NCBI GenBank assembly: GCA_027371755.1 | Contig: DAHXLF010000009.1 | Coordinates: 1 to 32,593, forward strand | DNA: 32,593 bases | Reading direction: 5' to 3' | Source: Acidimicrobiales bacterium | GTDB lineage: Bacteria > Actinomycetota > Acidimicrobiia > Acidimicrobiales > JABEUL01 | In this document: one piece after another, positions 313 through 13,425 of the stretch | Numbering within the stretch: position 1 is the stretch's first letter | Layout: each line of letters opens with the position of its first letter | Position numbers and translations under genes: made by a program | Notes under the pieces: model-generated | Database searches by the model: none | What the model was told of the DNA's origin: nothing | Seen by the model: only the letters and a program-made list of their open reading frames with translations

Positions 313-2085
313 CTAATGCATTCCCATTGGCATAATGTTTTCAGGATCCGAATCTGTCGGCGAATCGCCGTCAGTCGCTTTTTTGTCCGCGCTACCTGCG
401 GCTACGTTCTGCCCGCCAATGCCAGAATACTTTCTTAATTTAATCTCCTTGATAAACAAAGTCAAAACAAAAGTAATAATTGCAATAGGAACACCAACTA
501 CAAAGACTTTGTCCACAGAATGCGAAAAAGCTTGAATCAAACCATGCCTAATTATGGGGGGCATACCTTTTAATTGGTTCGGCGTAAAACTCAAAGTCTG
601 AGAGGCATTAATTTTTGCCTTCTTTAAAACGGCCGGTGGCAAATACTTAGGAAGCCAAACATTTAACTGGCTAACCAAAACTGTTCCAAAGATAGCCGTT
701 CCGAAAGATCCTCCTAAGGATCTGAAGAAACTCACAAGACCTGTTGAAGTTCCTATGTCTTTAATCTCGACTGCATTCTGAGTTGCCAATATCATATTCT
801 GCATCATTAAACCGATTCCAAAACCAACAAGAATCATTCCGATGCTTAGTTCAAAATATGACGTTGAGCTTTTCAAAGTCGTAAAATACATCATGCCAGC
901 AGTCAAAAATAGTCCGCCCACAATTGGAAATATCTTATACTTTCCTCTTCTTGTTACTAACTGGCCACTCCCAATTGACGCTATTAAGACTCCTACCATC
1001 AACGGAATAAGTTCCAAACCTGATATGGTAGCGGATGCACCTTTAACGAGCTGAAGATAAAGGGGCAAAAATATTATGCTTCCAAACATAGCCATTGCCA
1101 TCAAAAAGGTAATTGCCGACGAAAAGCTAAAGATTGAATTTTTAAACAATCTAAGTGGCACAAAAGGTTCAGAAACTTTAGTTTCGATATACAAAAATAC
1201 CGCAAGCAACAGCATACTTATTGCGATTGTTGTAATTATTTGAGACGATCCCCATGGATAGGTAATTCCACCCCAAACCAAGGCCAGCAATAGAAGAACA
1301 ACACTTGCCGTTAAGACAGCCGCACCCATATAATCTATCTTGTGATCTCTCCTGTGAAATGGTAGATCCAATACCGATGAGGTAACAATAAGGGCTACAA
1401 TCCCAATCGGAACATTTACGTAAAAAACCCATCTCCAGGAAAGATTATCTACGAAGAATCCTCCGATTAACGGGCCGGCGACCGATGCAAAGCCGAAGAC
1501 GGCTCCTGTATAACCCTGATATTTACCTCGTTCTCTCGGAGACACTATGTCTGCGATTATGGTCATTGCTAAAGACATTAAACCACCACCACCGAGACCT
1601 TGCAAACCCCTAAATGCGATAAGTTCATTCATATTTTGCGCAAGTCCCGACAACATGGAACCGACCAAAAAGATCACAATCGCTACCTGAAATATTAATT
1701 TTCTACCGTACAAATCCGAAATTTTCCCGTACAGCGGTGTCGAGACGGTCGAAGTTAACAGATAGGCGGTTACCACCCAACTGAGATGGTCAAGTCCTCC
1801 GAGGGAACCGACTATGGTCGGAAGTGCTGTAGATACAATAGTCTGATCCAAGGCCGCAAGGAGCATTCCCAGCATCAAGCCGCTGAACACTATTTGTATC
1901 TGCCTATGGCTCATATGTACTTTTGAAACATCGTTAGGATCAATTTGAATCTGATCTTGTTCGTTGGAGTCCACACGCCCGCCAGGTGGTACAGAACTAT
2001 CCAGTGCGAGTGCATCGTTTTGAATATCTGTCTCTGTCGACTTAGTATCAGAGACATCGTCCCGTCGGACCTTTTTATTTGTCAT
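313..2085 (-). CDS. MFS multidrug efflux transporter, DHA2 (EmrB/QacA) family
   Basis: This 590-residue inner-membrane protein should export drugs or toxic organic compounds in exchange for protons. A hydrophilic N-terminal stretch of about 60 residues precedes the first membrane helix. DHA2 signatures are visible: the LDQTIVSTALPTI motif (79-91, with the conserved Asp80), motif A GKISDLYGRK (120-129), FRGLQGLGGGG (158-168), the PRERGKYQG loop (183-191) and motif C plus WRWVFYVNVPIG (204-228). Length and hydrophobic pattern fit the 14-helix type, and the C-terminal tail is hydrophilic. It starts 10 nt after the MarR stop codon, so the two genes form one operon and the MarR protein very likely controls the pump. 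The substrate cannot be told from sequence. A weak ribosome site leaves the exact start a little uncertain. Confidence 0.93.
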   Translation of the reverse strand: MTNKKVRRDDVSDTKSTETDIQNDALALDSSVPPGGRVDSNEQDQIQIDPNDVSKVHMSHRQIQIVFSGLMLGMLLAALDQTIVSTALPTIVGSLGGLDHLSWVVTAYLLTSTVSTPLYGKISDLYGRKLIFQVAIVIFLVGSMLSGLAQNMNELIAFRGLQGLGGGGLMSLAMTIIADIVSPRERGKYQGYTGAVFGFASVAGPLIGGFFVDNLSWRWVFYVNVPIGIVALIVTSSVLDLPFHRRDHKIDYMGAAVLTASVVLLLLALVWGGITYPWGSSQIITTIAISMLLLAVFLYIETKVSEPFVPLRLFKNSIFSFSSAITFLMAMAMFGSIIFLPLYLQLVKGASATISGLELIPLMVGVLIASIGSGQLVTRRGKYKIFPIVGGLFLTAGMMYFTTLKSSTSYFELSIGMILVGFGIGLMMQNMILATQNAVEIKDIGTSTGLVSFFRSLGGSFGTAIFGTVLVSQLNVWLPKYLPPAVLKKAKINASQTLSFTPNQLKGMPPIIRHGLIQAFSHSVDKVFVVGVPIAIITFVLTLFIKEIKLRKYSGIGGQNVAAGSADKKATDGDSPTDSDPENIMPMGMH

Positions 2086-2095
2086 TCCAGTTCTG

Positions 2096-2635
2096 TTACC
2101 TTTCCAAATGATTTCCGCAATTATTTGCTAAAACCGCGACTAACTTATCCATTAATTCAAGCAAAGTTTTCTTATCGACTTCGGGCCAATCTTTCATTGC
2201 ATCCGCAATGGTGGCTTTTCGCATCTTAGAAATTTCGGCCTTATACTTTTGTCCCGCTTTGGTAGTAACCAAAAGCGAAGCTCTCTTATCGTTATCGTCT
2301 CCCGTCTTGGACAAAAACTTTAAATCTAAAAGTGTTTTTACTTGCCTTGATACCGTCGACACATCGACACCTAATCTGCTTGCGAGATCCGAAAGCCGAA
2401 TTGGTTCATTTTCACCCACAAACACCAATATCCAATATGCCGACCGATCGATTTGATGATTATTGACCGGTCTGTTCAGATTAGTAGTCATTTTCAGGCA
2501 AGATCTTCCAAGACTACTTAGGACCTTTTCAATCGAATCCAAAAGCTCTCCAGAATCTTTATTGTCCATAACCGAATTTACCTGCGACGATTTATCATCG
2601 GTATGATTTGAAGCGACCATTTTTGAAGCGACCAT
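2096..2635 (-). CDS. MarR-family transcriptional regulator
   Basis: A 179-residue winged-helix regulator. Residues about 64-125 hold the MarR core: RSAYWILVFV, the helix-turn-helix LSDLASRLGVDVSTVSRQVKTL (81-102) and the wing DDNDKRASLLVTTKAG (113-128), with the D-x-R-A pattern typical of the family. About 60 residues precede the core, longer than usual, and begin with a duplicated MVAS(K/N) from a 15-bp repeat that offers two ATG starts (2635 and 2620). It is the first gene of an operon with the DHA2 pump, 10 nt upstream of it. A perfect TTGTAT-c-ATACAA palindrome lies in its promoter, which fits autorepression released by a pump substrate. That regulatory model is inference from the family and layout. 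Confidence 0.9.
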   Translation of the reverse strand: MVASKMVASNHTDDKSSQVNSVMDNKDSGELLDSIEKVLSSLGRSCLKMTTNLNRPVNNHQIDRSAYWILVFVGENEPIRLSDLASRLGVDVSTVSRQVKTLLDLKFLSKTGDDNDKRASLLVTTKAGQKYKAEISKMRKATIADAMKDWPEVDKKTLLELMDKLVAVLANNCGNHLER

Positions 2636-2670
2636 TGCTAAACACCAAATTTACTTGCTTTTAATAATCT

Positions 2671-2705
2671 ATTATAGCATATAGTTGCTTGTATCATACA
2701 ACTAT
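2671..2705 (-). promoter_or_regulatory. marR promoter with overlapping MarR-type operator
   Basis: On the minus strand a perfect TATAAT (2671-2676) is the -10 element of the marR-pump operon. Just upstream is a perfect 13-bp palindrome TTGTAT-C-ATACAA (2689-2701), its half-site doubling as a poor -35 at 19-nt spacing. A second inverted repeat, ATAGTTG (2681-2687) and CAACTAT (2699-2705), straddles it. MarR proteins commonly bind palindromes of this size across the promoter, so repressor binding would block RNA polymerase. Confidence 0.65.
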
Positions 2706-2813
2706 TTTGTAGATTGGAAATACTGCCTGTTATCGACATATAACTCAAAAATATATAAATACCTTTAGCTCGTCGGTTGCCATTTATACAAAACAAGATT
2801 AGTCTTTGATACC

Positions 2814-3896
2814 GTGTATTGTGATACCCTTTATATTGTGAATCAAATCGGACTTTTAGGGGGAACCGGATATACCGGACGTTTGGTAGTAAAAGAACTT
2901 TTAGCTCAGAAGCTTCCTTTTGCCCTAGGAATCAGAAACAAATCAAAATTATATGAAGTTCTTGATGAGTTCTCACTAAACGAACTTAAATCAAATCCGG
3001 ATCAATACCAAGTAGCTAGCGTAGACGTTACCGATGAGGATTCTCTAAAAAGATTTTACGAAAAAATCGATACCGTAATTTCGACGGTGGGTCCGTTTTG
3101 CAAATTAGGCAAATTGCCAGTGGTGGTAGCTAACGAAACCAAAACCAACTACATAGATTCAACCGGTGAGCCCGAATTTATGAAATGGATATATAACAAC
3201 TTTAACCCTGAGCAAAATTTTATAGTTCCCGCATGCGGTTTTGATTATCTTCCCGGAGATCTGATCAGTAATAAATGCCTGTCAGATTTAGATGAAAACG
3301 AACATGCAAGCATTGAGATAACTTATGCCATTTCTCATTGGATACCGACCAGAGGAACTGCAGAAAGTGCAATTATGGCCTTTGTCAATTCGGATGATCC
3401 AGGCAAAATTGACGAAATCAGCTTTTTGGATAAGAATCTTTCACGGCTGAAGATCCCGTGGGGCGAAGAGACAACTGTAGGACTTCATCACCCAAATGCC
3501 GATGTTTCATGTTATATAAGTGTTAACAAAATGGTAGGAGAAGTCCTTAAATTCATGACTCCCTTGACAAGATTAGCTATTCCGCTGCTTGAAAAATCTA
3601 CGAAGTTTTTACCTGAAGGACCTAATGCGGATCGCAGAAGAAAAGCAACATACGATATATACGTCAAAGCTACTGCAGGTTCAAATTCGTCCTACGGAAT
3701 TTTTAACGGAATAGACATATACGGCACAACGGCAATTATGTTAATTTTGTCGGCTCAAAATGCAAGCGGAATCGGAACGATGGCTCCAAGTCAAGCATTT
3801 GACACACTGACTATGCTCAAAGATATTTCAAATTTTGAAATCAAATCAGATGACTTAAAAGGAGCCACCTGTAACTACAGCTTTGTTAAACCATAG
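2814..3896 (+). CDS. Saccharopine dehydrogenase-fold NADP-binding reductase (trans-acting enoyl reductase-like)
   Basis: A 360-residue protein with an N-terminal Rossmann domain, LLGGTGYTG at 14-22, then TVGPFCKLGKLPVVVA (91-106) and CGFDYLPGDL (141-150). These are typical of the saccharopine dehydrogenase-like family that in mycobacteria includes the trans-acting enoyl reductase of phthiocerol/phenolic glycolipid synthesis. It probably reduces an acyl or other carbonyl-bearing substrate with NAD(P)H; the true substrate is unknown and lysine metabolism is unlikely. The first start is GTG at 2814; a second GTG at 2838 would remove eight residues. Neither has a clear ribosome site. It is transcribed divergently from the MarR operon, so their promoters share the spacer, and it is convergent with the sortase gene. 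Confidence 0.8.
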   Translation: MYCDTLYIVNQIGLLGGTGYTGRLVVKELLAQKLPFALGIRNKSKLYEVLDEFSLNELKSNPDQYQVASVDVTDEDSLKRFYEKIDTVISTVGPFCKLGKLPVVVANETKTNYIDSTGEPEFMKWIYNNFNPEQNFIVPACGFDYLPGDLISNKCLSDLDENEHASIEITYAISHWIPTRGTAESAIMAFVNSDDPGKIDEISFLDKNLSRLKIPWGEETTVGLHHPNADVSCYISVNKMVGEVLKFMTPLTRLAIPLLEKSTKFLPEGPNADRRRKATYDIYVKATAGSNSSYGIFNGIDIYGTTAIMLILSAQNASGIGTMAPSQAFDTLTMLKDISNFEIKSDDLKGATCNYSFVKP

Positions 3897-3953
3897 TAAA
3901 AGTGTGATTTTAAGATATCAAAACAACCAATTCCGATTTTAAAAAATAAACAT

Positions 3954-3980
3954 TTTGAACTTTAATAGTTAAAGTTCAAA
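3954..3980 (-). terminator. 12-bp perfect inverted repeat between convergent genes, likely terminator
   Basis: TTTGAACTTTAA (3954-3965) and its exact complement TTAAAGTTCAAA (3969-3980) are separated by three bases. It lies between the ends of two convergent genes. In the minus-strand direction the stem is followed by a U-rich stretch, so it best serves the sortase gene; the stem is AT-rich, so efficiency is doubtful. Confidence 0.5.
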
Positions 3981-4011
3981 TACCAGTAACGAAACTTAAA
4001 TCAGTGCGAAA

Positions 4012-5124
4012 TTAAACCTTCGTGGCTGTGAAGCTTGTTAAATAAAAATAATCCTGACTGCTGCCGTTTACAGTTTGCTTAACAGTTGATACTGTTGCAC
4101 TGACAGAATAGATCCCACCGGCTAAACCTAATTCTGCCTGCATATTCATGGAACTCACATTACTTCCCGTGCCCGCAATCGTAACTACCATTGCCTTATA
4201 GTATCCCGAAACAGAGTCCCCGTTAAACTGCGAGGGATAGGCCACATTTTTTGAAAAATCGGCAAACCAACTGGAATTTGAATATTTAAGAGAATCAATA
4301 ATTCCAAACCAAATTTCCAGCGCGCTGGCTTCGTAATTCATTGGAGCATTTGTTTGCAAAAAAGTCGGATTTAAATTTCCGCTGGTTAACATCTCGCCCA
4401 TCGGTTGAGTATTGTTAGTCAAGCTCAAGCCCAAGTTTGACAGAGCTGGCGGTATATTCACATTCGGGGCTGGCGGAAAGTTTGGAATCACCAACTGTTT
4501 TAAACTTGGTTGCGTTTTGACAACCTGAGTATCCACCAACAGTCTTGTGTTAGTATAAGCCAGAGTATTGACCGGCCAACATGTTTCTAAAATTGTTCCG
4601 TTATAAGGCAGGTCGTAAACAGTCGTACTGGTAGTAACTACCTGCGAGGTAGTTACCTTAAGTACTGTTTCGGTTTGACAGGGGACATAATAGTCAACTT
4701 CCGCTCCCGCCTTAAGTTGATTTAAATCCCAAAACTGCGCAACGTCGTGTGCACTCAACTCAGAAGTTCCAGGCTGATTTGGCCAAGCGGTAGAAACATT
4801 GTGCCCTACAGCAACGGCAATGACGCTATCGGAAACGCCGTCTGTAACCGGTGCAATCATCGACAATGAAGGAATTTCCAAAACTCCAACCAGCGGTAAG
4901 TTGCTGTTCGGAATGGTGGGTGCAGTACAGCTAGGTGGTTTAGTTACAGTTGTAGTTACCTTAACAGCCACTTTTTTAATGGGCGGGTGCCCACCGCCTC
5001 CTGTTATCATCGTTCCGATCAAAATACCGATAACCAACAACAGTACACCCAAAATAGCAGAATACAATATTGTCTTATTTGTTATCTTATTCGTTGAAAT
5101 TGTTTGATTTGGTGAATCGACCAT
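4012..5124 (-). CDS. Membrane-anchored sortase (class D/E-like) with extra C-terminal domain
   Basis: This 370-residue protein has a short cytoplasmic start, one membrane helix (about 19-41), a Thr/Lys-rich linker and a sortase-like domain at about 78-202. I see the family pattern: LVGVLEIPSLSMIAPV at the domain start, GHNVSTAWPNQPG, the presumed catalytic His126 in ELSAHD, Cys182 in LETCWP (family form TLxTCxP) and Arg194 in TNTRLLV. Sortases are extracytoplasmic transpeptidases that cut an LPxTG-like signal and attach proteins to the cell wall or to each other. Ordinary class D/E enzymes end shortly after the Arg strand; here about 150 more residues follow, of unrecognised fold. No protein with an obvious sorting signal is encoded in the window, so its substrate is elsewhere. 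A TAAAAT box lies 8 nt before the ATG, which could mean a leaderless transcript. Confidence 0.75.
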   Translation of the reverse strand: MVDSPNQTISTNKITNKTILYSAILGVLLLVIGILIGTMITGGGGHPPIKKVAVKVTTTVTKPPSCTAPTIPNSNLPLVGVLEIPSLSMIAPVTDGVSDSVIAVAVGHNVSTAWPNQPGTSELSAHDVAQFWDLNQLKAGAEVDYYVPCQTETVLKVTTSQVVTTSTTVYDLPYNGTILETCWPVNTLAYTNTRLLVDTQVVKTQPSLKQLVIPNFPPAPNVNIPPALSNLGLSLTNNTQPMGEMLTSGNLNPTFLQTNAPMNYEASALEIWFGIIDSLKYSNSSWFADFSKNVAYPSQFNGDSVSGYYKAMVVTIAGTGSNVSSMNMQAELGLAGGIYSVSATVSTVKQTVNGSSQDYFYLTSFTATKV

Positions 5125-5359
5125 TAATATAAATTTTAGTATGATCTCCGGAGCTAAATTGACTCACTCCGACAATGAAAATTGCCCGCTTAAAGTCTCG
5201 TCTACGTTTCTAGCCATTAGTTGACTGCTTTAAAAGTTTACTTTTTATTTACTCGATAGAAAATACCTGATAGCTAATTCCGCTGCAAGTCAAATTCAAG
5301 TTTCGCTAAGTAAAATTTAACGCAGAACATCCTTTTGGGCTACATTCTGTAAGCCAACT
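5125..5359. other. Intergenic region, nothing recognised
   Basis: This AT-rich spacer lies between the sortase start and the end of the phosphoesterase gene, both on the minus strand. It should hold the sortase promoter. I found no convincing hairpin or RNA gene. Confidence 0.4.
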
Positions 5360-5968
5360 TTATGACCAACTAAGCGGTACGCAATTTTGCAGTTCGTGGC
5401 CTATGAGCTCTATCAATTCAAGTTCCGAAACTGGATAGCCTCCCCAAGCATCTACTCCAACGTTAATCATTTTATCCATCACTCTCCACTTCTCGTGAAC
5501 ATGGCCGTGCAAGAGCCACAATCCTGCATCTACAGGTCTATGCTCAACAAAACGTTCTTCATCTCTGCTGTCACCGCGATAGGGGAAATGATCTACAAGA
5601 ACTTTGACCCCAGCTAAATCGAATTCAAAGGGTCCTTCAACTATGTTTAAACCAACATCTTCGTATCTTTCCGCCCAGTTCGTTGAAGTGTCACAATGTT
5701 TTTTGCTCAAGTTGCCCCTCCAACATCTGTCATGATTGCCCGGCACTAAAACTTTTTTACCGTGTAATTCGGTAACCAAATTGAGTGTTTGATCGATTTT
5801 ACCCATTACAATGTCACCCAAAACGTAGACCTCATCCACTGGTGCTACCTTTTGGTTCCATCGCCGAATTAAATCTTCATTCATTTCGTCCACATTTTCA
5901 TACGGACGACCTGTATATGAACATATATTAGTATGTCCGAAATGTAAATCCGCTGTCCACCACCTCAT
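5360..5968 (-). CDS. Calcineurin-like metallophosphoesterase
   Basis: A 202-residue soluble protein with the complete dimetal phosphoesterase motif set: DLHFGH (Asp7, His9), GDIVMG (Asp52), GNHDR (Asn78, His79), the metal-binding His127 and HGHVH (154-158). These ligate two metal ions and hydrolyse phosphoester bonds. Small stand-alone members starting with a W-x-x-DLHFGH pattern occur in bacteria and phages; their substrates are mostly unknown. The ATG is preceded by AGGTGAG at good spacing, which fixes the start. It is a single gene with no partner that would reveal its substrate. Confidence 0.9.
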   Translation of the reverse strand: MRWWTADLHFGHTNICSYTGRPYENVDEMNEDLIRRWNQKVAPVDEVYVLGDIVMGKIDQTLNLVTELHGKKVLVPGNHDRCWRGNLSKKHCDTSTNWAERYEDVGLNIVEGPFEFDLAGVKVLVDHFPYRGDSRDEERFVEHRPVDAGLWLLHGHVHEKWRVMDKMINVGVDAWGGYPVSELELIELIGHELQNCVPLSWS

Positions 5969-6316
5969 AGCTGACTCACCTGGGCCAAAACGAGTATTCT
6001 GTGTCTCATTGCCATTCCTTAATATTGCAATTTAAAACTATCACATTAAATGACAATTACCACCTATTTTATATAGATTTGTCATGAATGCTCGGTTGCT
6101 TTAAAGTCTACCTATAAATAGATGACCCGAACTTTCAAACAGAAACTTAATAGATCGATACTAGTTAAATAGAACCTAATCGCTTGCAAGCGAAATTAAT
6201 GCCGGAACCTTAATCTATTAACTGAACCTTTGATCTAACACATTAATTGACTTGCTTAAATATTTAATTTAAGTTGTGAGCAAATTTAACATGTGATCAT
6301 TTGCTAAGGTAAAGCT
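5969..6316. promoter_or_regulatory. 348-nt divergent spacer with palindrome and GAACC repeats
   Basis: This region lies between the divergently transcribed phosphoesterase and polyphosphate glucokinase genes. It contains a perfect 14-bp palindrome TCGCTTGCAAGCGA (6180-6193), a nearly concentric 9-bp inverted repeat TTAATAGAT/ATCTATTAA (6147-6155, 6213-6221), three GAACC-T-rich direct repeats (from 6172, 6205 and 6224) and an AT-rich dyad CTTAAAT/ATTTAAG (6255-6273). TTGACT at 6247-6252 could be a -35 for the kinase gene, with only a weak -10 after it. The dyads look like regulator sites, but no regulator can be assigned. Confidence 0.4.
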
Positions 6317-7339
6317 ATGGTTACAAAACGAATTAACAATAACAACTCCACGCCTGTTTCAAAAACAACCACCGTCGCCCGTCCTTCAACTGGATTAGGA
6401 ACAGGTCGACAGCAAAATAAAGCGGTTGCAAAAACAACTCCGAGACGAGTCACCCAAACTGCATCAAAAAGCACCGGGATAAAAAAGACCGTCGCTAAAA
6501 GTCAGCCTGCCAGAGTAGGTAAAGCCACTGTAAGCAGAGCCGTTGCACCGAGAAAAACTACGACAAAGAGCTTACCCAGTAAGACTCAGCTGCCAAGTTC
6601 AATGGCAACACTCACATTTGACATTGGAGGAACGGGCCTTAAGGCCTCATTGGTCTCCGATACCGGCAAACTCTTACACGAGAGGCTCAGGATACCTACG
6701 CCATACCCGTGCTATCCAGAAACACTGGTGGAAAATCTCATAAAGCTATCGACGCAACTCCCCAAAGCAGATAGGGTAGCCGTAGGGTTTCCCGGAATGG
6801 TACGAAATGGCATAGTGCTCACCGCACCAAATCTTTCGCTTCCCAAGGGCCCAGGTAAGTCTAAAAAACCATCTAAAAAAATAGCTGATATGTACAGCGG
6901 CTTTAATCTCAAACAACAATTGGAAAAAAGCCTCAGCCTTGAAGTCCACGTAGTAAACGATGCGGACTTAGCAGGCGCCGGCGCAATCAAAGGACGTGGG
7001 TTAGAAATCGTGGCTACTCTCGGCACCGGTTTTGGAACGGGCATGTTCTTTAACGGTAAATTATTACCTCACATGGAAATAGCCCATTTGAATTTTAAAA
7101 ATAATAAGTCATTTGATGAAATAATTGGTGATGCAGCCCGCAAATCTATGAAAATTAACAAGTGGTCAAAATTAGTTTTGGAGGCATTGGATATTCTCTA
7201 TAGCCTGACACACTACGACCACTTGTATTTAGGAGGAGGAAATGCTTCAAGAATCAGTGTTAAACTTCCGTCAAACACAACGATTATCTCAAATCTAGCA
7301 GCGATTAAAGGCGGGCCCAAACTGTTTGAAGCAATATAA
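6317..7339 (+). CDS. ppgK: Polyphosphate glucokinase (ROK family) with long basic N-terminal tail
   Basis: This cytoplasmic enzyme should phosphorylate glucose to glucose 6-phosphate using inorganic polyphosphate, often also ATP. The ROK kinase core begins near residue 96: phosphate-binding DIGGTGLKA (102-110), VAVGFPG (154-160), NDAD with the presumed catalytic Asp215, the second phosphate loop TLGTGFGTGMF (234-244), EIAH (254-257) and GGG (307-309). The zinc-cysteine motif of ordinary ROK sugar kinases is absent, as in other polyphosphate glucokinases. The first 95 residues are unusual: rich in Lys, Arg, Ser, Thr, Ala and Pro, about 20 basic residues and no acidic one, resembling histone-H1-like tails. 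The start at 6317 is supported by AAGGT just upstream; ATG 6602 would give a tail-less enzyme of normal length but has no clear ribosome site. Confidence 0.87.
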   Translation: MVTKRINNNNSTPVSKTTTVARPSTGLGTGRQQNKAVAKTTPRRVTQTASKSTGIKKTVAKSQPARVGKATVSRAVAPRKTTTKSLPSKTQLPSSMATLTFDIGGTGLKASLVSDTGKLLHERLRIPTPYPCYPETLVENLIKLSTQLPKADRVAVGFPGMVRNGIVLTAPNLSLPKGPGKSKKPSKKIADMYSGFNLKQQLEKSLSLEVHVVNDADLAGAGAIKGRGLEIVATLGTGFGTGMFFNGKLLPHMEIAHLNFKNNKSFDEIIGDAARKSMKINKWSKLVLEALDILYSLTHYDHLYLGGGNASRISVKLPSNTTIISNLAAIKGGPKLFEAI

Positions 7340-7539: not shown

Positions 7540-7953
7540 ATGAAATCAGACTTATTGGAAGCACGAAACACGCTTAATCAAGTTTCGGTTGCAGACAAGT
7601 GCGCCTGTAGATTATTGGCAATTAAATCCATTAAAAAACAATCCAGACAAGAAGAAGACAAAGCCCAAAGAATATTTTCAATATCAATCGTTATATCAGG
7701 CTTAAGGTGTCTGCTCAGCTATATAATATTTCCCTTTATCCTTCCGTTTATCGGAATTGCCGGTAACTTTACTCCATACGTGGGACTAATTATCGGTATT
7801 GTTGCATTGGTGTTTGATGTAATAGGGATCAGAAGATTCTTTATCGCTCAACACAGATTGAGATGGATGATCTCGGTAATTTATGTAGGCGTAATGACTT
7901 TGGTATGTATTCTTATTGGAATAGACCTGGCCAATATATTGTCCAAATTATAA
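7540..7953 (+). CDS. Small integral membrane protein, unknown function
   Basis: A 137-residue protein I do not recognise. It has a charged, probably cytoplasmic N-terminal region of about 45 residues containing KCACRLL, then hydrophobic segments at about 46-65, 70-97 and 109-133, so three or four membrane helices. AGGTAG about 8 nt before the ATG supports translation. The nearest genes, the glucokinase and a DsbA-like protein on the same strand, are more than 130 nt away, so a shared operon is uncertain. Confidence 0.65.
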   Translation: MKSDLLEARNTLNQVSVADKCACRLLAIKSIKKQSRQEEDKAQRIFSISIVISGLRCLLSYIIFPFILPFIGIAGNFTPYVGLIIGIVALVFDVIGIRRFFIAQHRLRWMISVIYVGVMTLVCILIGIDLANILSKL

Positions 7954-8828: not shown

Positions 8829-8982
8829 AGGGTAGAAGCAATTGAAAAGTATCTAAATGCAAATAGCAAGAATCCAAAACCATTCAAATGGACTCAGAGC
8901 GCAGAGGTCATTTTAAAGAAAGGTTAGGAGGGGAATAGTTGCACTTAAGGCAATCGCTGCTTAATACTGAGACACTACACTA
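8829..8982 (+). mobile_element. Frameshifted IS630-family transposase remnant with element end
   Basis: Reading from 8832 gives VEAIEKYLNANSKNPKPFKW then TQSAEVILKK, the expected C-terminal region of an IS630-type transposase. One extra base near 8922 shifts the frame; correcting it restores VRRGIVALKAIAA and a stop at 8962-8964. The protein tail and the 3' end GAGACACTACAC-TA (8969-8982) match the remnant at 1-138, so both derive from related elements in the same orientation. No upstream transposase sequence or left terminal repeat (GTGTAGTGTC) is visible, so this is a dead 3' fragment. Confidence 0.6.
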
Positions 8983-9561
8983 GTTAAACACAATCTGAGA
9001 GTTAGAAGATAATCCTATGGTTCCGCATCCTTCACACATCGAGATAGTACTGCCGTTAATTGCGTCAATTTCATATCCCATGCTGTGAAAAATAGGAACA
9101 TTTTCAGGACCACCAAATGAAGATTGGATGGTAATACCTGTTATATAAATGACCCAAACTGGCAGATTGCTCGGCAATCCAGGCCTTGTAGTGTCTCCAA
9201 AATGAGGGCCTGAAACACTAAAAGTTGTCAGCAATGAATGGAAGATACCCCCCTTGGGCATATTAGTTCCAAATGCTTTGGTAACTTCCTGCAGTGAAAT
9301 AAGTTGCTCGCCTGGCACTGTTGTTACGGGAAATGTATTTGCAATTGCATTTGACATCATTTTAATTTTATGCTGACAACTGCTACTGAAATTGTTTCCA
9401 TATGAACAGGCAGCTTTCGATACTGGAGCCGATTCAACGGCCGCTTTAGTATTTGATCCGGCGAATACTAAAGTTAAAACAGCTGTCAGAAGCACGATGA
9501 CTGCCAACGCAACGAAGATAACCTTAACTTTAATACTCATATATTTAGATTCCTTTTTCAT
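8980..9561 (-). CDS. Secreted or membrane-anchored protein, unknown function
   Basis: A 193-residue protein with a basic start and a hydrophobic segment at about 12-34 ending in VFAGSNTKAAV, either a signal peptide or an N-terminal anchor. The exported part is about 155 residues with four cysteines (two in SYGNNFSSSCQ, two in SMCEGCG), suggesting disulfides outside the cell. I do not recognise the family. The start has AAAGGAG 9 nt upstream; an inner ATG (residue 8) also has a ribosome site. It begins 34 nt after the neighbouring secreted-protein gene, so the two are probably cotranscribed. Its stop codon TAG lies at the junction with the IS630 end, so its original C-terminus may have been lost. 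Confidence 0.7.
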   Translation of the reverse strand: MKKESKYMSIKVKVIFVALAVIVLLTAVLTLVFAGSNTKAAVESAPVSKAACSYGNNFSSSCQHKIKMMSNAIANTFPVTTVPGEQLISLQEVTKAFGTNMPKGGIFHSLLTTFSVSGPHFGDTTRPGLPSNLPVWVIYITGITIQSSFGGPENVPIFHSMGYEIDAINGSTISMCEGCGTIGLSSNSQIVFN

Positions 9562-9595
9562 TTTAATTTACTCCTTTGCTTAATGTTTTATTACT

Positions 9596-10378
9596 TTAAG
9601 GTTTGTTGTTCCACCACTCATTTCCCGAATACGGGTATCCGTTTAGGCAGTAACCGGCTGGGTAGATGTTGCACCCAAAGTCAATCTCCCAACTTGAGTA
9701 GGATGATGGATACTGCCAAGCATCATTAACCAATAAAGATGAATAGTTGTAAAATGAGCCAGTTGACTCATCGGCATCGATAACAATCTCGTTATTATAG
9801 GAAGATATGCATTGCTCATTACCAGTTTGTGGGCAGCCAGTGGAATCCTGGCCATCAAAATCTTCGAATCCTGTAGTTTGATTATATCCGTAAGTACTGG
9901 CATTTGTCTCATCCGTTGAGACCCCATAATAGGTTCCATCAATATAAATGTCCCAGTAGTAAGGAGATTGTCCGTTGGGTGAGTTCGGTACAAGCGAATC
10001 ATTAATGATTTGGTAAGTATGTTGGGTCCCATCTGGTGTCCACTCGGCAACGTAATGTATATAAAACCCATTTATGCCATTATCGGCCCAAAAGTAATCG
10101 TAAGAATCACAATTACATCCTCCTATTCCGCAAACTCCGGTTTCAATGCAGCCATTATAGTTGTATCCATACTCGACTCCAGTTTCAACCCATTCTGATC
10201 CATCACTTGATACAGGCAACCAGGTTTCGTTACTTAAATGCCCCAAATTACTTGCACTTATATCGTTTGGATCAGAAAACGACAGTGGTTCATTGCTCAT
10301 AACGGCCTGTGCACCTTCGATGTATCCGTTGGTTGCGCAATAAGCAGCTCTCGAATAGCCATGTGCTCGAATAGCCAT
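9596..10378 (-). CDS. Secreted Tyr/Gly/Asn-rich protein, main part, frame-disrupted
   Basis: The 260-residue open frame is rich in Tyr, Trp, Gly, Asn and Ser, with Cys pairs such as VCGIGGCNC, and looks like an extracellular beta-rich protein. The stretch from WVETGVEYGY to YFWADNGINGFYIHYVAEW recalls a group of unnamed actinobacterial secreted proteins; that is recollection, not a search. This frame lacks a signal peptide: one is encoded just upstream in another frame. A perfect 16-bp tandem duplication (10350-10381) separates them. Removing one copy joins the frames as SQPHGYSRAAYC and gives a continuous protein with a signal peptide and ten cysteines after it. The ATG at 10378 lies inside the duplication with no ribosome site, so the shown frame is probably not translated as such. 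The next gene downstream is also secreted. Confidence 0.6.
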   Translation of the reverse strand: MAIRAHGYSRAAYCATNGYIEGAQAVMSNEPLSFSDPNDISASNLGHLSNETWLPVSSDGSEWVETGVEYGYNYNGCIETGVCGIGGCNCDSYDYFWADNGINGFYIHYVAEWTPDGTQHTYQIINDSLVPNSPNGQSPYYWDIYIDGTYYGVSTDETNASTYGYNQTTGFEDFDGQDSTGCPQTGNEQCISSYNNEIVIDADESTGSFYNYSSLLVNDAWQYPSSYSSWEIDFGCNIYPAGYCLNGYPYSGNEWWNNKP

Positions 10379-11082: not shown

Positions 11083-13425
11083 TTAATTTCTAATGAATTC
11101 GATTGTTAGATCATTGCTTTCTAAAATCTCGGTCTCAAAGTACAGAAGTTTTCTCGGATTTTTATCTATATAGAGTTGAATCTGATCACTATGGTTAACA
11201 GAGTTTATGTTTTCATCTTGACCATATGTCAATAATCCGAAACCCTGAGGACCATCTTCGGTGAAACTCAAGGCGTAGAAAAATGAAGTTCCCTGACATA
11301 TTGCATACCCGCTTTTTCTAATGCCGGTTTTGTTCGTTCTTTGTGCTATCGGGTCACCTGCTGACACCAAATCTTCTCTGGGCTCATTCGATGAGAAAGG
11401 TAGTTCGCATACCGGGGTAACAATATTGGTCAGCCCGTCTGTTTCGTGACCTCCGTGCAGATAATATTTACCTCCAGACAGATTTGCGTACTGTAATTTC
11501 TCCAATGCACTATCCAAACCGATATCTGCCTCTTTAAGCGTCTTAATGGCTGCACAAATGACGTCCTTAATTGTATCGGCTTCTTCATTTGCAACTACTA
11601 TTCGCGGTGTCCTAAACGGGTCATTTGGGTCGTATTTGTCTTGAAAAAGCCGGCCTTGATCCTTAAGATCGTTTAGTTCAAATCCTGCCACGATTTCTCT
11701 AAACAGTACTGCTCCTTTTGAATTTAGATCAAAACAACCGTCCCAATTTTTTAAGATACTGGCAACTGAGTTAAAGTCATCGACCGAAACATCGTCTATA
11801 TCCTTTAAGTGTTGTGCAAAATACAGACATTTATCTCCAAGCTGATCTTTGATCAATTCGGCCAAAAGTGACTTGTTCGAAAGCGCATAACCAATCATGT
11901 CTTCTGTCGACATCTTTTTTTCACCATTTGCCCCATATGACATCAAAAATTTCAGGCATGCTTTTGTTCTGACTGTTGGAGGTTCCTCCAAACCCTGCAA
12001 ATATGTGGATAATTTAATTGGCTTATTCGGATTTGTCAACCAGGCCGAGTCATTTGCGTTAAAGACAAAATCAGTTCTGGATATCTGAGGATAATCGGAA
12101 TATGGAATTAGTCCCAAAGCGGGAGCTTCACTGTGGAAGGCGCAGTCACAATCTGGATCTGAACCGTCCAACAATGTAATTTTATTATCGTAAAGCATTT
12201 TAGTTAACGGATCGGTTTCCAATTTTTCTTTTAAGATTGATTTACCGCGGTCGGAAAGATTAACCGTCCTAGACGAATCTATATACCATGTATCGCCATT
12301 TTTGTCGGCGGCAATGGTGTTTGCCCACGGCATTCCATTTTCTGTTCGATGCGCTTCTTTAAACTCCTCAAGAGACTTACTGGCATCCATCTTCATAAAC
12401 AGCGGTATAAAAGAAAAGTTGTCTTCATTTGCGTCTTTAACGGTTAAAGCATAATCATTTGTCCACCCCAAAATCGGCAAATTAAGCATAGGTCCATAAT
12501 GACTTGAATACATCTGTTTTTCGACTGTTGAGATACCGTCTTGACCTAATACATCCACGCTAACGGTGGTTATATCCATTTTCCTAATTTCGTCGCCATA
12601 GTAATAATGATCAGGTTTATCTTTTACTAAATTTAGTTTATAGATAAGAAACCGTTTGCCTATTGAAAAGGTGTGTGTCCAAGCCACATTTTCGTTAAAT
12701 CCTATTAGTATGCCTGGGGCGCCGATTAAAGTAACCCCGTAGCAATCAACCAATCCGTCTATAGTTAAATGACACTCCCAGAATCTATTTTCTCCCACCC
12801 ACGGAAAATGCGGGTTCCCCAGAACCATCCCCTTACCGTTATAGCTAAGATCCTTTCCGATCGCCCAACCGTTACTGGCAAGTCCGCCCGACGGCAACGT
12901 CGACACAGGCGGAGTCGGCCGCGGGCCATTTTCATCAGGCGGTGAAGCAATTGACATAAAAGGAATTAGATTTCTCGAACCGGCGGCCAAGGCTATATCG
13001 GTGCAAAAAGCGACAAGATCAAACTCAGAAATTGGTTTTATCCATTCAGCGCCTTGCGCCCAGGCCGGAAAATCCTCTACTCGGGCATTTTCCAAAAAGC
13101 AATTGACCCCTGCGGCATAGCCTAAAAGAAATTTACGGCAATCTTCCGGTAGGGTATCAAAATGCTTTTCAGCCTTCGTTCGCAATCCCAAAAGTAGATA
13201 TCCCGCATCTGAAACAATATTTTTATCATCTTCACCGGCACCAAAATACTTAGCTCTTTCGCCTCTGACTTTAACTATCTGATCCATCAACGTGGCTATA
13301 TGGTGCTTTGAACAGGCAAATCCTTGACCGAAACCGGCATTTGCATAATTCGTAGCTTTAATATGCGGAATTGCTTTATCCGTCCACCTAATTTCACATT
13401 CGTATTTATCGTCTTGAATTTCCAC
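11083..13425 (-). CDS. Penicillin/AHL acylase-family Ntn hydrolase without signal peptide
   Basis: A 780-residue member of the penicillin acylase (peptidase S45) family, the size of PvdQ- and aculeacin-type acylases, which cleave amide-linked acyl chains such as those of acyl-homoserine lactones, lipopeptides or beta-lactams. The precursor would cut itself before Ser184 in LASNGWAIG, making an alpha chain of 183 and a beta chain of 597 residues with Ser184 as N-terminal nucleophile. Downstream motifs GMVLGNPHFPW and AWTHTFS fit the beta chain. Most relatives have a Sec signal; here the protein begins MEIQDDKYECEIRW and a TAG immediately precedes the GTG in frame, so the protein seems cytoplasmic. 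GGAG six nt before the GTG supports the start. The substrate is not predictable. Confidence 0.87.
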   Translation of the reverse strand: MEIQDDKYECEIRWTDKAIPHIKATNYANAGFGQGFACSKHHIATLMDQIVKVRGERAKYFGAGEDDKNIVSDAGYLLLGLRTKAEKHFDTLPEDCRKFLLGYAAGVNCFLENARVEDFPAWAQGAEWIKPISEFDLVAFCTDIALAAGSRNLIPFMSIASPPDENGPRPTPPVSTLPSGGLASNGWAIGKDLSYNGKGMVLGNPHFPWVGENRFWECHLTIDGLVDCYGVTLIGAPGILIGFNENVAWTHTFSIGKRFLIYKLNLVKDKPDHYYYGDEIRKMDITTVSVDVLGQDGISTVEKQMYSSHYGPMLNLPILGWTNDYALTVKDANEDNFSFIPLFMKMDASKSLEEFKEAHRTENGMPWANTIAADKNGDTWYIDSSRTVNLSDRGKSILKEKLETDPLTKMLYDNKITLLDGSDPDCDCAFHSEAPALGLIPYSDYPQISRTDFVFNANDSAWLTNPNKPIKLSTYLQGLEEPPTVRTKACLKFLMSYGANGEKKMSTEDMIGYALSNKSLLAELIKDQLGDKCLYFAQHLKDIDDVSVDDFNSVASILKNWDGCFDLNSKGAVLFREIVAGFELNDLKDQGRLFQDKYDPNDPFRTPRIVVANEEADTIKDVICAAIKTLKEADIGLDSALEKLQYANLSGGKYYLHGGHETDGLTNIVTPVCELPFSSNEPREDLVSAGDPIAQRTNKTGIRKSGYAICQGTSFFYALSFTEDGPQGFGLLTYGQDENINSVNHSDQIQLYIDKNPRKLLYFETEILESNDLTIEFIRN

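Follow-up and report, generated by a model that had tools for sequence, protein, structure and literature searches.

The open reading frame (ORF) at positions 6317–7339 on the forward strand of contig DAHXLF010000009.1, an Acidimicrobiales sequence of 32,593 nucleotides that is called the window here at its full length, starts with ATG and encodes a sugar kinase of 340 residues in which a folded core stands behind a strongly basic N-terminal tail of 95 residues. The window is one whole contig of a 2.2 Mb draft genome (G000) that is 82% complete. The tail, the start site that includes it, the fold of the core and a basic leader charge in every family member found are established by the sequence comparisons described below. 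Tentatively, the tail is read as an electrostatic tether that holds on to a polyanion without specificity and is carried by a hexokinase of the ROK family that resembles polyphosphate glucokinase (PPGK), and this reading is given slightly less than an even chance. Polyphosphate use, tail binding and effects on kinetics or localization are inferred.

A preliminary description of this DNA had pointed to about 20 Lys/Arg residues and no Asp/Glu in a 95-residue extension rich in Ser, Thr, Ala and Pro, and the counts agree with it: residues 1–95 contain 12 Lys and 8 Arg, no Asp and no Glu, 18 Thr, 11 Ser, 9 Ala and 7 Pro, forming an acid-free, low-complexity leader rich in Thr, Ser, Lys and Ala. 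When the net charge of the first 95 residues was ranked over 495 genes of at least 110 amino acids called across 704 kb of G000, the kinase came first of 495 with +20, and the runner-up had +14. Mononucleotide shuffles of the tail DNA indicated that A-rich DNA by itself accounts for a charge of about +10; +20 was reached in 334 of 20,000 shuffles and a complete lack of acidic residues in 7 of 20,000. The lack of acids is therefore the striking part of the tail, because it is so rare in the shuffles. The tail is predicted to be intrinsically disordered, with AlphaFold2 giving it block-mean values of 44–52 in the predicted local distance difference test (pLDDT) and no secondary structure, compared with values above 90 for most residues of the core. 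The border between the two parts, previously placed at residue 96, holds to within a few residues, as the first core strand begins at residue 97 and the Pfam ROK match at residue 100.

The mRNA is probably leaderless, with translation from ATG 6317. In all five orthologs of the family, the long start shows the arrangement TANNNT-N6-ATG, in which TANNNT ends exactly 6 nt upstream of the ATG. Across the G000 genome, TANNNT gaps of 6 and 7 nt were found at 26 and 36 of 506 ATG starts, compared with a mean of 14.5 for gaps of 10–39 nt, and among 126 orthologs whose start had not been preselected these two gaps occur in 34 and 22, any other gap occurring in six at most. Since this spacing is enriched both genome-wide and order-wide, the start looks leaderless, and ATG 6317 has TANNNT at the distance taken here to define that type (6–7 nt before the start codon). 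In Mycobacterium tuberculosis, TANNNT is centred 7–12 bp before 73% of the primary transcript starts, and leaderless genes make up 26% of those with a primary start site (PMC3898074). The preliminary description had favoured the long form on account of a ribosome site; the long form is supported, but that argument for it is not. An AAGG 7 nt before ATG 6317 is a possible Shine–Dalgarno (SD) match in G000 only, and as it is absent from the other four family members an SD sequence was rejected as the conserved start signal; TANNNT-N6-ATG is what is kept instead.

Translation from ATG 6602, with the 95 upstream codons being non-coding, is highly improbable, although this in-frame ATG sits exactly at the border of the core. 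When the DNA of the three congeners (G000, G001 and G002) was aligned without regard to reading frame, all but one of the 11 internal gaps within the first 400 nt had a length divisible by three, the exception being a gap of 1 nt in G001; in the 300 nt upstream of the start this was true of only 5 of 17 gaps. Neither G002 nor G003 has an equivalent of ATG 6602, and the GTG of G001 and the ATG of G004 lie elsewhere. Furthermore, the long start is the only ATG or GTG before the core in G002 and G003, G002 having a TTG 42 codons before the core motif. The short form was rejected on these gap lengths, on the conserved TANNNT at the long start and on the non-conservation of its own ATG. Use of this ATG, which had been named in advance as an observation that would speak against the tail, is thus disfavoured within the family.

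Orthologs were found in five of the six family genomes, none being found in G005 (72% complete), and all five carry a basic tail, so that the tail is not absent from close relatives, as it should have been if the preliminary description were wrong. The leader up to the core motif measures 101 residues in G000, 110 in G002, 127 in G001, 55 in G004 and 37 in G003, with net charges of +20, +20, +28, +10 and +8, respectively, and the five leaders contain 0, 1, 3, 1 and 0 acids. Between the congeners the tails are 26–35% identical at aligned positions, and Lys/Arg stands opposite Lys/Arg at 9, 13 and 13 sites, compared with 3.3, 4.5 and 4.6 expected; the sequence thus changes quickly while the charge persists. 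The ratio of nonsynonymous to synonymous changes per site (pN/pS) is 0.66–0.70 in the tail and 0.16–0.18 in the core, these being rough values with synonymous sites near saturation.

The core belongs to the ROK family, with a PF00480 score of 53.9 bits against a gathering threshold of 22.9. The nearest PDB entry by profile is the polyphosphate/ATP glucomannokinase 1woq (E = 9.4e-48), which also ranks first in Foldseek with a template modelling score by target of 0.81 and 27% identity. The ROK catalytic and sugar-side residues are kept: N214, D215, A216, D217 and E254 are invariant and H257 is present in at least 90% of 23 aligned rows. E254 and H257 are the residues of the sugar side. The role of the conserved Asp of NDAD is described in PMC4252912. 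In comparison with 1woq and PPGK, the core fold is the same and the motifs DIGGTG, NDAD, GTG, E..H and GGG are common to both, but PPGK has ELGH where the window kinase has EIAH; furthermore, five loci of the PPGK-like type in Acidimicrobiales (L021, L022, L023, L025 and L026) have leaders of about 6–30 residues as judged by eye, in contrast to the basic 95 residues found here. The second-best match by both fold and profile is 3lm2, a putative ROK kinase from Agrobacterium titled 'putative kinase', which shares MEIAH and GGGN; its solved chain has 226 residues and the profile match begins at its residue 4, and it therefore has no such tail. The family genomes contain two to three ROK genes each, and PPK1 was found in all six. 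Polyphosphate is thus probably made in the family, and this kinase, as the nearest thing to PPGK in these genomes, may use it as a donor.

Across the order, a family-alignment search found the kinase gene in 96 of 397 genomes at E values up to 1e-40. The order table began with 164 loci, from which 21 without a recognized core (17 of these being Bacteroidota) and 17 duplicate cores were dropped, leaving the 126 unique orthologs used above; two of them have no start, 32 have weak starts and were kept out of the set of 92 with supported starts and of the basic and acidic labels, and a few rows are Alphaproteobacteria or other groups. Over all rows the leader comprises 6–127 residues with net charges of −19 to +28, and acidic leaders occur on the same kinase (L245, −19; L163, −10; L167, −7). 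With TANNNT-supported starts only, all five family members have at least +8, while three of the 51 other rows (L141, L147 and L197) have at least +7. In a quickly built tree, the rows labelled basic comprise the five of the family, a starred group of three (L006, L108 and L196), a second group of three (L141, L147 and L197; support 86) and the single rows L107, L162 and L235. The starts of L107 and L235 are doubtful, as upstream frames are open by chance in GC-rich genomes and these single SD-called long leaders may be wrong; with doubtful rows included, the basic label needs at least six changes on this tree, five of which are forced by starred branches. Having a disordered leader is thus common to the order at large, and strong basicity marks this family and a few others of its lineages. 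The alignment of homologues proposed earlier as a check on conservation of the tail charge accordingly gives a divided answer, the tail being basic in five of five family orthologs but not so order-wide. Outside the order, the tabulated Alphaproteobacteria rows show no such tail (leaders of 7–11 residues with weak starts). A single-protein scan of genome contigs with the window kinase gave no match, and a plasmid tblastn search gave 52 records, all below 60% identity.

In the proposed mechanism, a ROK-family hexokinase of the PPGK-like subfamily would be translated from ATG 6317 with its folded core behind the disordered tail; the tail would bind weakly and electrostatically to polyphosphate, to DNA or RNA, or to both, and such a tether would keep the enzyme close to the granule or the nucleoid and to the probable donor of its phosphate. 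A soluble kinase with a flexible polycation attached is expected to bind polyanions, and the leader is most likely an electrostatic tether that is able to evolve. The H1-like KPAA tails of AlgP and PhaF in Pseudomonas are long, disordered and Lys-rich, as here, but the window tail is Thr/Ser-rich and N-terminal. In the work on AlgP (PMC9239181), this protein sits on polyphosphate granules and removal of its tail disturbs their number and spacing. The G001 tail matches the histone H1-like Pfam family HC2 with 22.2 bits (E = 1.7e-4), which lies below the 40-bit cut-off for membership, and the window tail has no Pfam match. The G001 tail also matches the C-terminal Lys tail of TopA of G000 (E = 0.0012). 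TopA and HU of these genomes also have Lys-rich tails of AKKTTAKK-type composition, but theirs are C-terminal and belong to DNA-binding proteins. Topoisomerase I (L256, L257) ends in AKKTTAKK-type repeats in G000 and G001, the G000 protein matching HC2 below the cut-off, and HU (L091–L094) has AAKKAPAKK tails in G003 and G004; in G000 and G001 its basic end is just a short one. Literature searches confined to open-licence PMC turned up no description of a tail like this one on a kinase of the polyphosphate type. If the tail does bind polyphosphate, one enzyme would join a substrate tether to a polyphosphate-type kinase core. The leaders found on a single core, ranging from acidic through neutral to basic, offer a natural series for testing charge against granule recruitment and reaction rate.

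Several results weigh against the tether. Among the 92 orthologs whose start is supported by TANNNT or by SD, the net charge is at least +7 in 14 and −3 or lower in 28. The NCBIfam model for polyphosphate glucokinase, NF045942, gives the window kinase 100.5 bits with a cut-off of 250, no gene in any of the six family genomes exceeds that cut-off, and PPK2 was found in none of the six. Because the cut-off was missed, polyphosphate use can only be inferred, and the earlier naming of the gene as a polyphosphate glucokinase stands as far as the nearest structure and the motifs are concerned but not on this model. In addition, in neutral-drift simulations started from the G000 tail, 2–7% of runs still have a net charge of +19 or more at 35% identity; selection on the tail charge beyond drift is therefore suggested by the sequence data, but not proven. 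The earlier proposal that the tail holds the enzyme on polyphosphate granules or DNA is plausible in view of PPK1, of AlgP and of the HC2 match of G001, although the charge varies across the order, and this variation is the reason why raised access to polyphosphate does not stand as a general property of this kinase.

The same variation bears on a different explanation, in which a weakly constrained disordered leader arose by start-site creep and its charge drifts, mostly with base composition, without specific tethering. This is somewhat unlikely, but it remains a serious rival because the charge is not conserved in the order as a whole; the high pN/pS of the tail, the charge of about +10 obtained from A-rich shuffles alone and the simulated survival of a high charge are all in its favour. 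However, all five family orthologs found are basic with few or no acids, and Lys/Arg columns coincide two to three times more often than by chance. Low GC as a cause of the basic tail was found to be insufficient, the 11 other rows with a GC fraction below 0.56 having net charges of only −3 to +2. Less probable still is a tether to DNA, the nucleoid or RNA, a Lys tail of the TopA or HU type placed on a metabolic enzyme, to which polyphosphate would be incidental. It draws on the AKKTTAKK tails of TopA, on the AAKKAPAKK tails of HU in G003 and G004, with HU of the window's genus having a short basic end only, and on the resemblance of the G001 tail to HC2; however, it is hard to see why a sugar kinase should be located on DNA if no polyphosphate is present at that site, and KKTTAKK repeats are more regular than the tail of G000. 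A bolder form of the polyanion tether is similarly doubtful: an H1-like tether would park a polyphosphate-using kinase on granules, perhaps at contacts between granule and nucleoid, basic tethers having arisen more than once in Acidimicrobiales from a variable leader, with acidic sister leaders keeping the kinase away.

Table 1. Features of the kinase locus in the window
Feature	Positions	Strand	Remarks
Start region	6302..6316	+	Extended −10-like box TGC-TAAGGT (6302–6310), then 6 nt to ATG; probable leaderless arrangement
N-terminal basic, histone H1-like tail, predicted disordered	6317..6601	+	Residues 1–95
Alternative short-form start, in-frame ATG	6602..6604	+	Residue 96; no SD-like or TANNNT-N6/7 signal; not conserved
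ROK sugar kinase core, PPGK/glucomannokinase-like	6605..7336	+	Residues 97–340; Pfam, profile, fold and pLDDT
Conserved 137-aa protein without Pfam or NCBIfam match	7540..7953	+	Beside the kinase in all three congeners

Among the neighbouring genes, the 137-residue protein is 74–75% identical in G001 and G002, and no copy was found in the stretches of G003 and G004 that were compared. The block at 313–7339, consisting of genes for an MFS transporter, a MarR regulator, an NAD(P)-binding protein, a sortase and the kinase, is conserved in G001, G003 and G004, and a part of it in G002, where the contig ends; a PIN protein and a TIG/sortilin-like protein of 1229 residues lie between kinase and phosphoesterase in G002. 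An Rfam search of the window gave no match. On the reverse strand, two adjoining ORFs of 193 and 260 residues at 8980–10378 have no Pfam match, and the gene at 11083–13425, which adjoins the NADH dehydrogenase (nuo) genes, encodes a protein related to the acylase PvdQ (406 bits, under the NCBIfam cut-off of 950).
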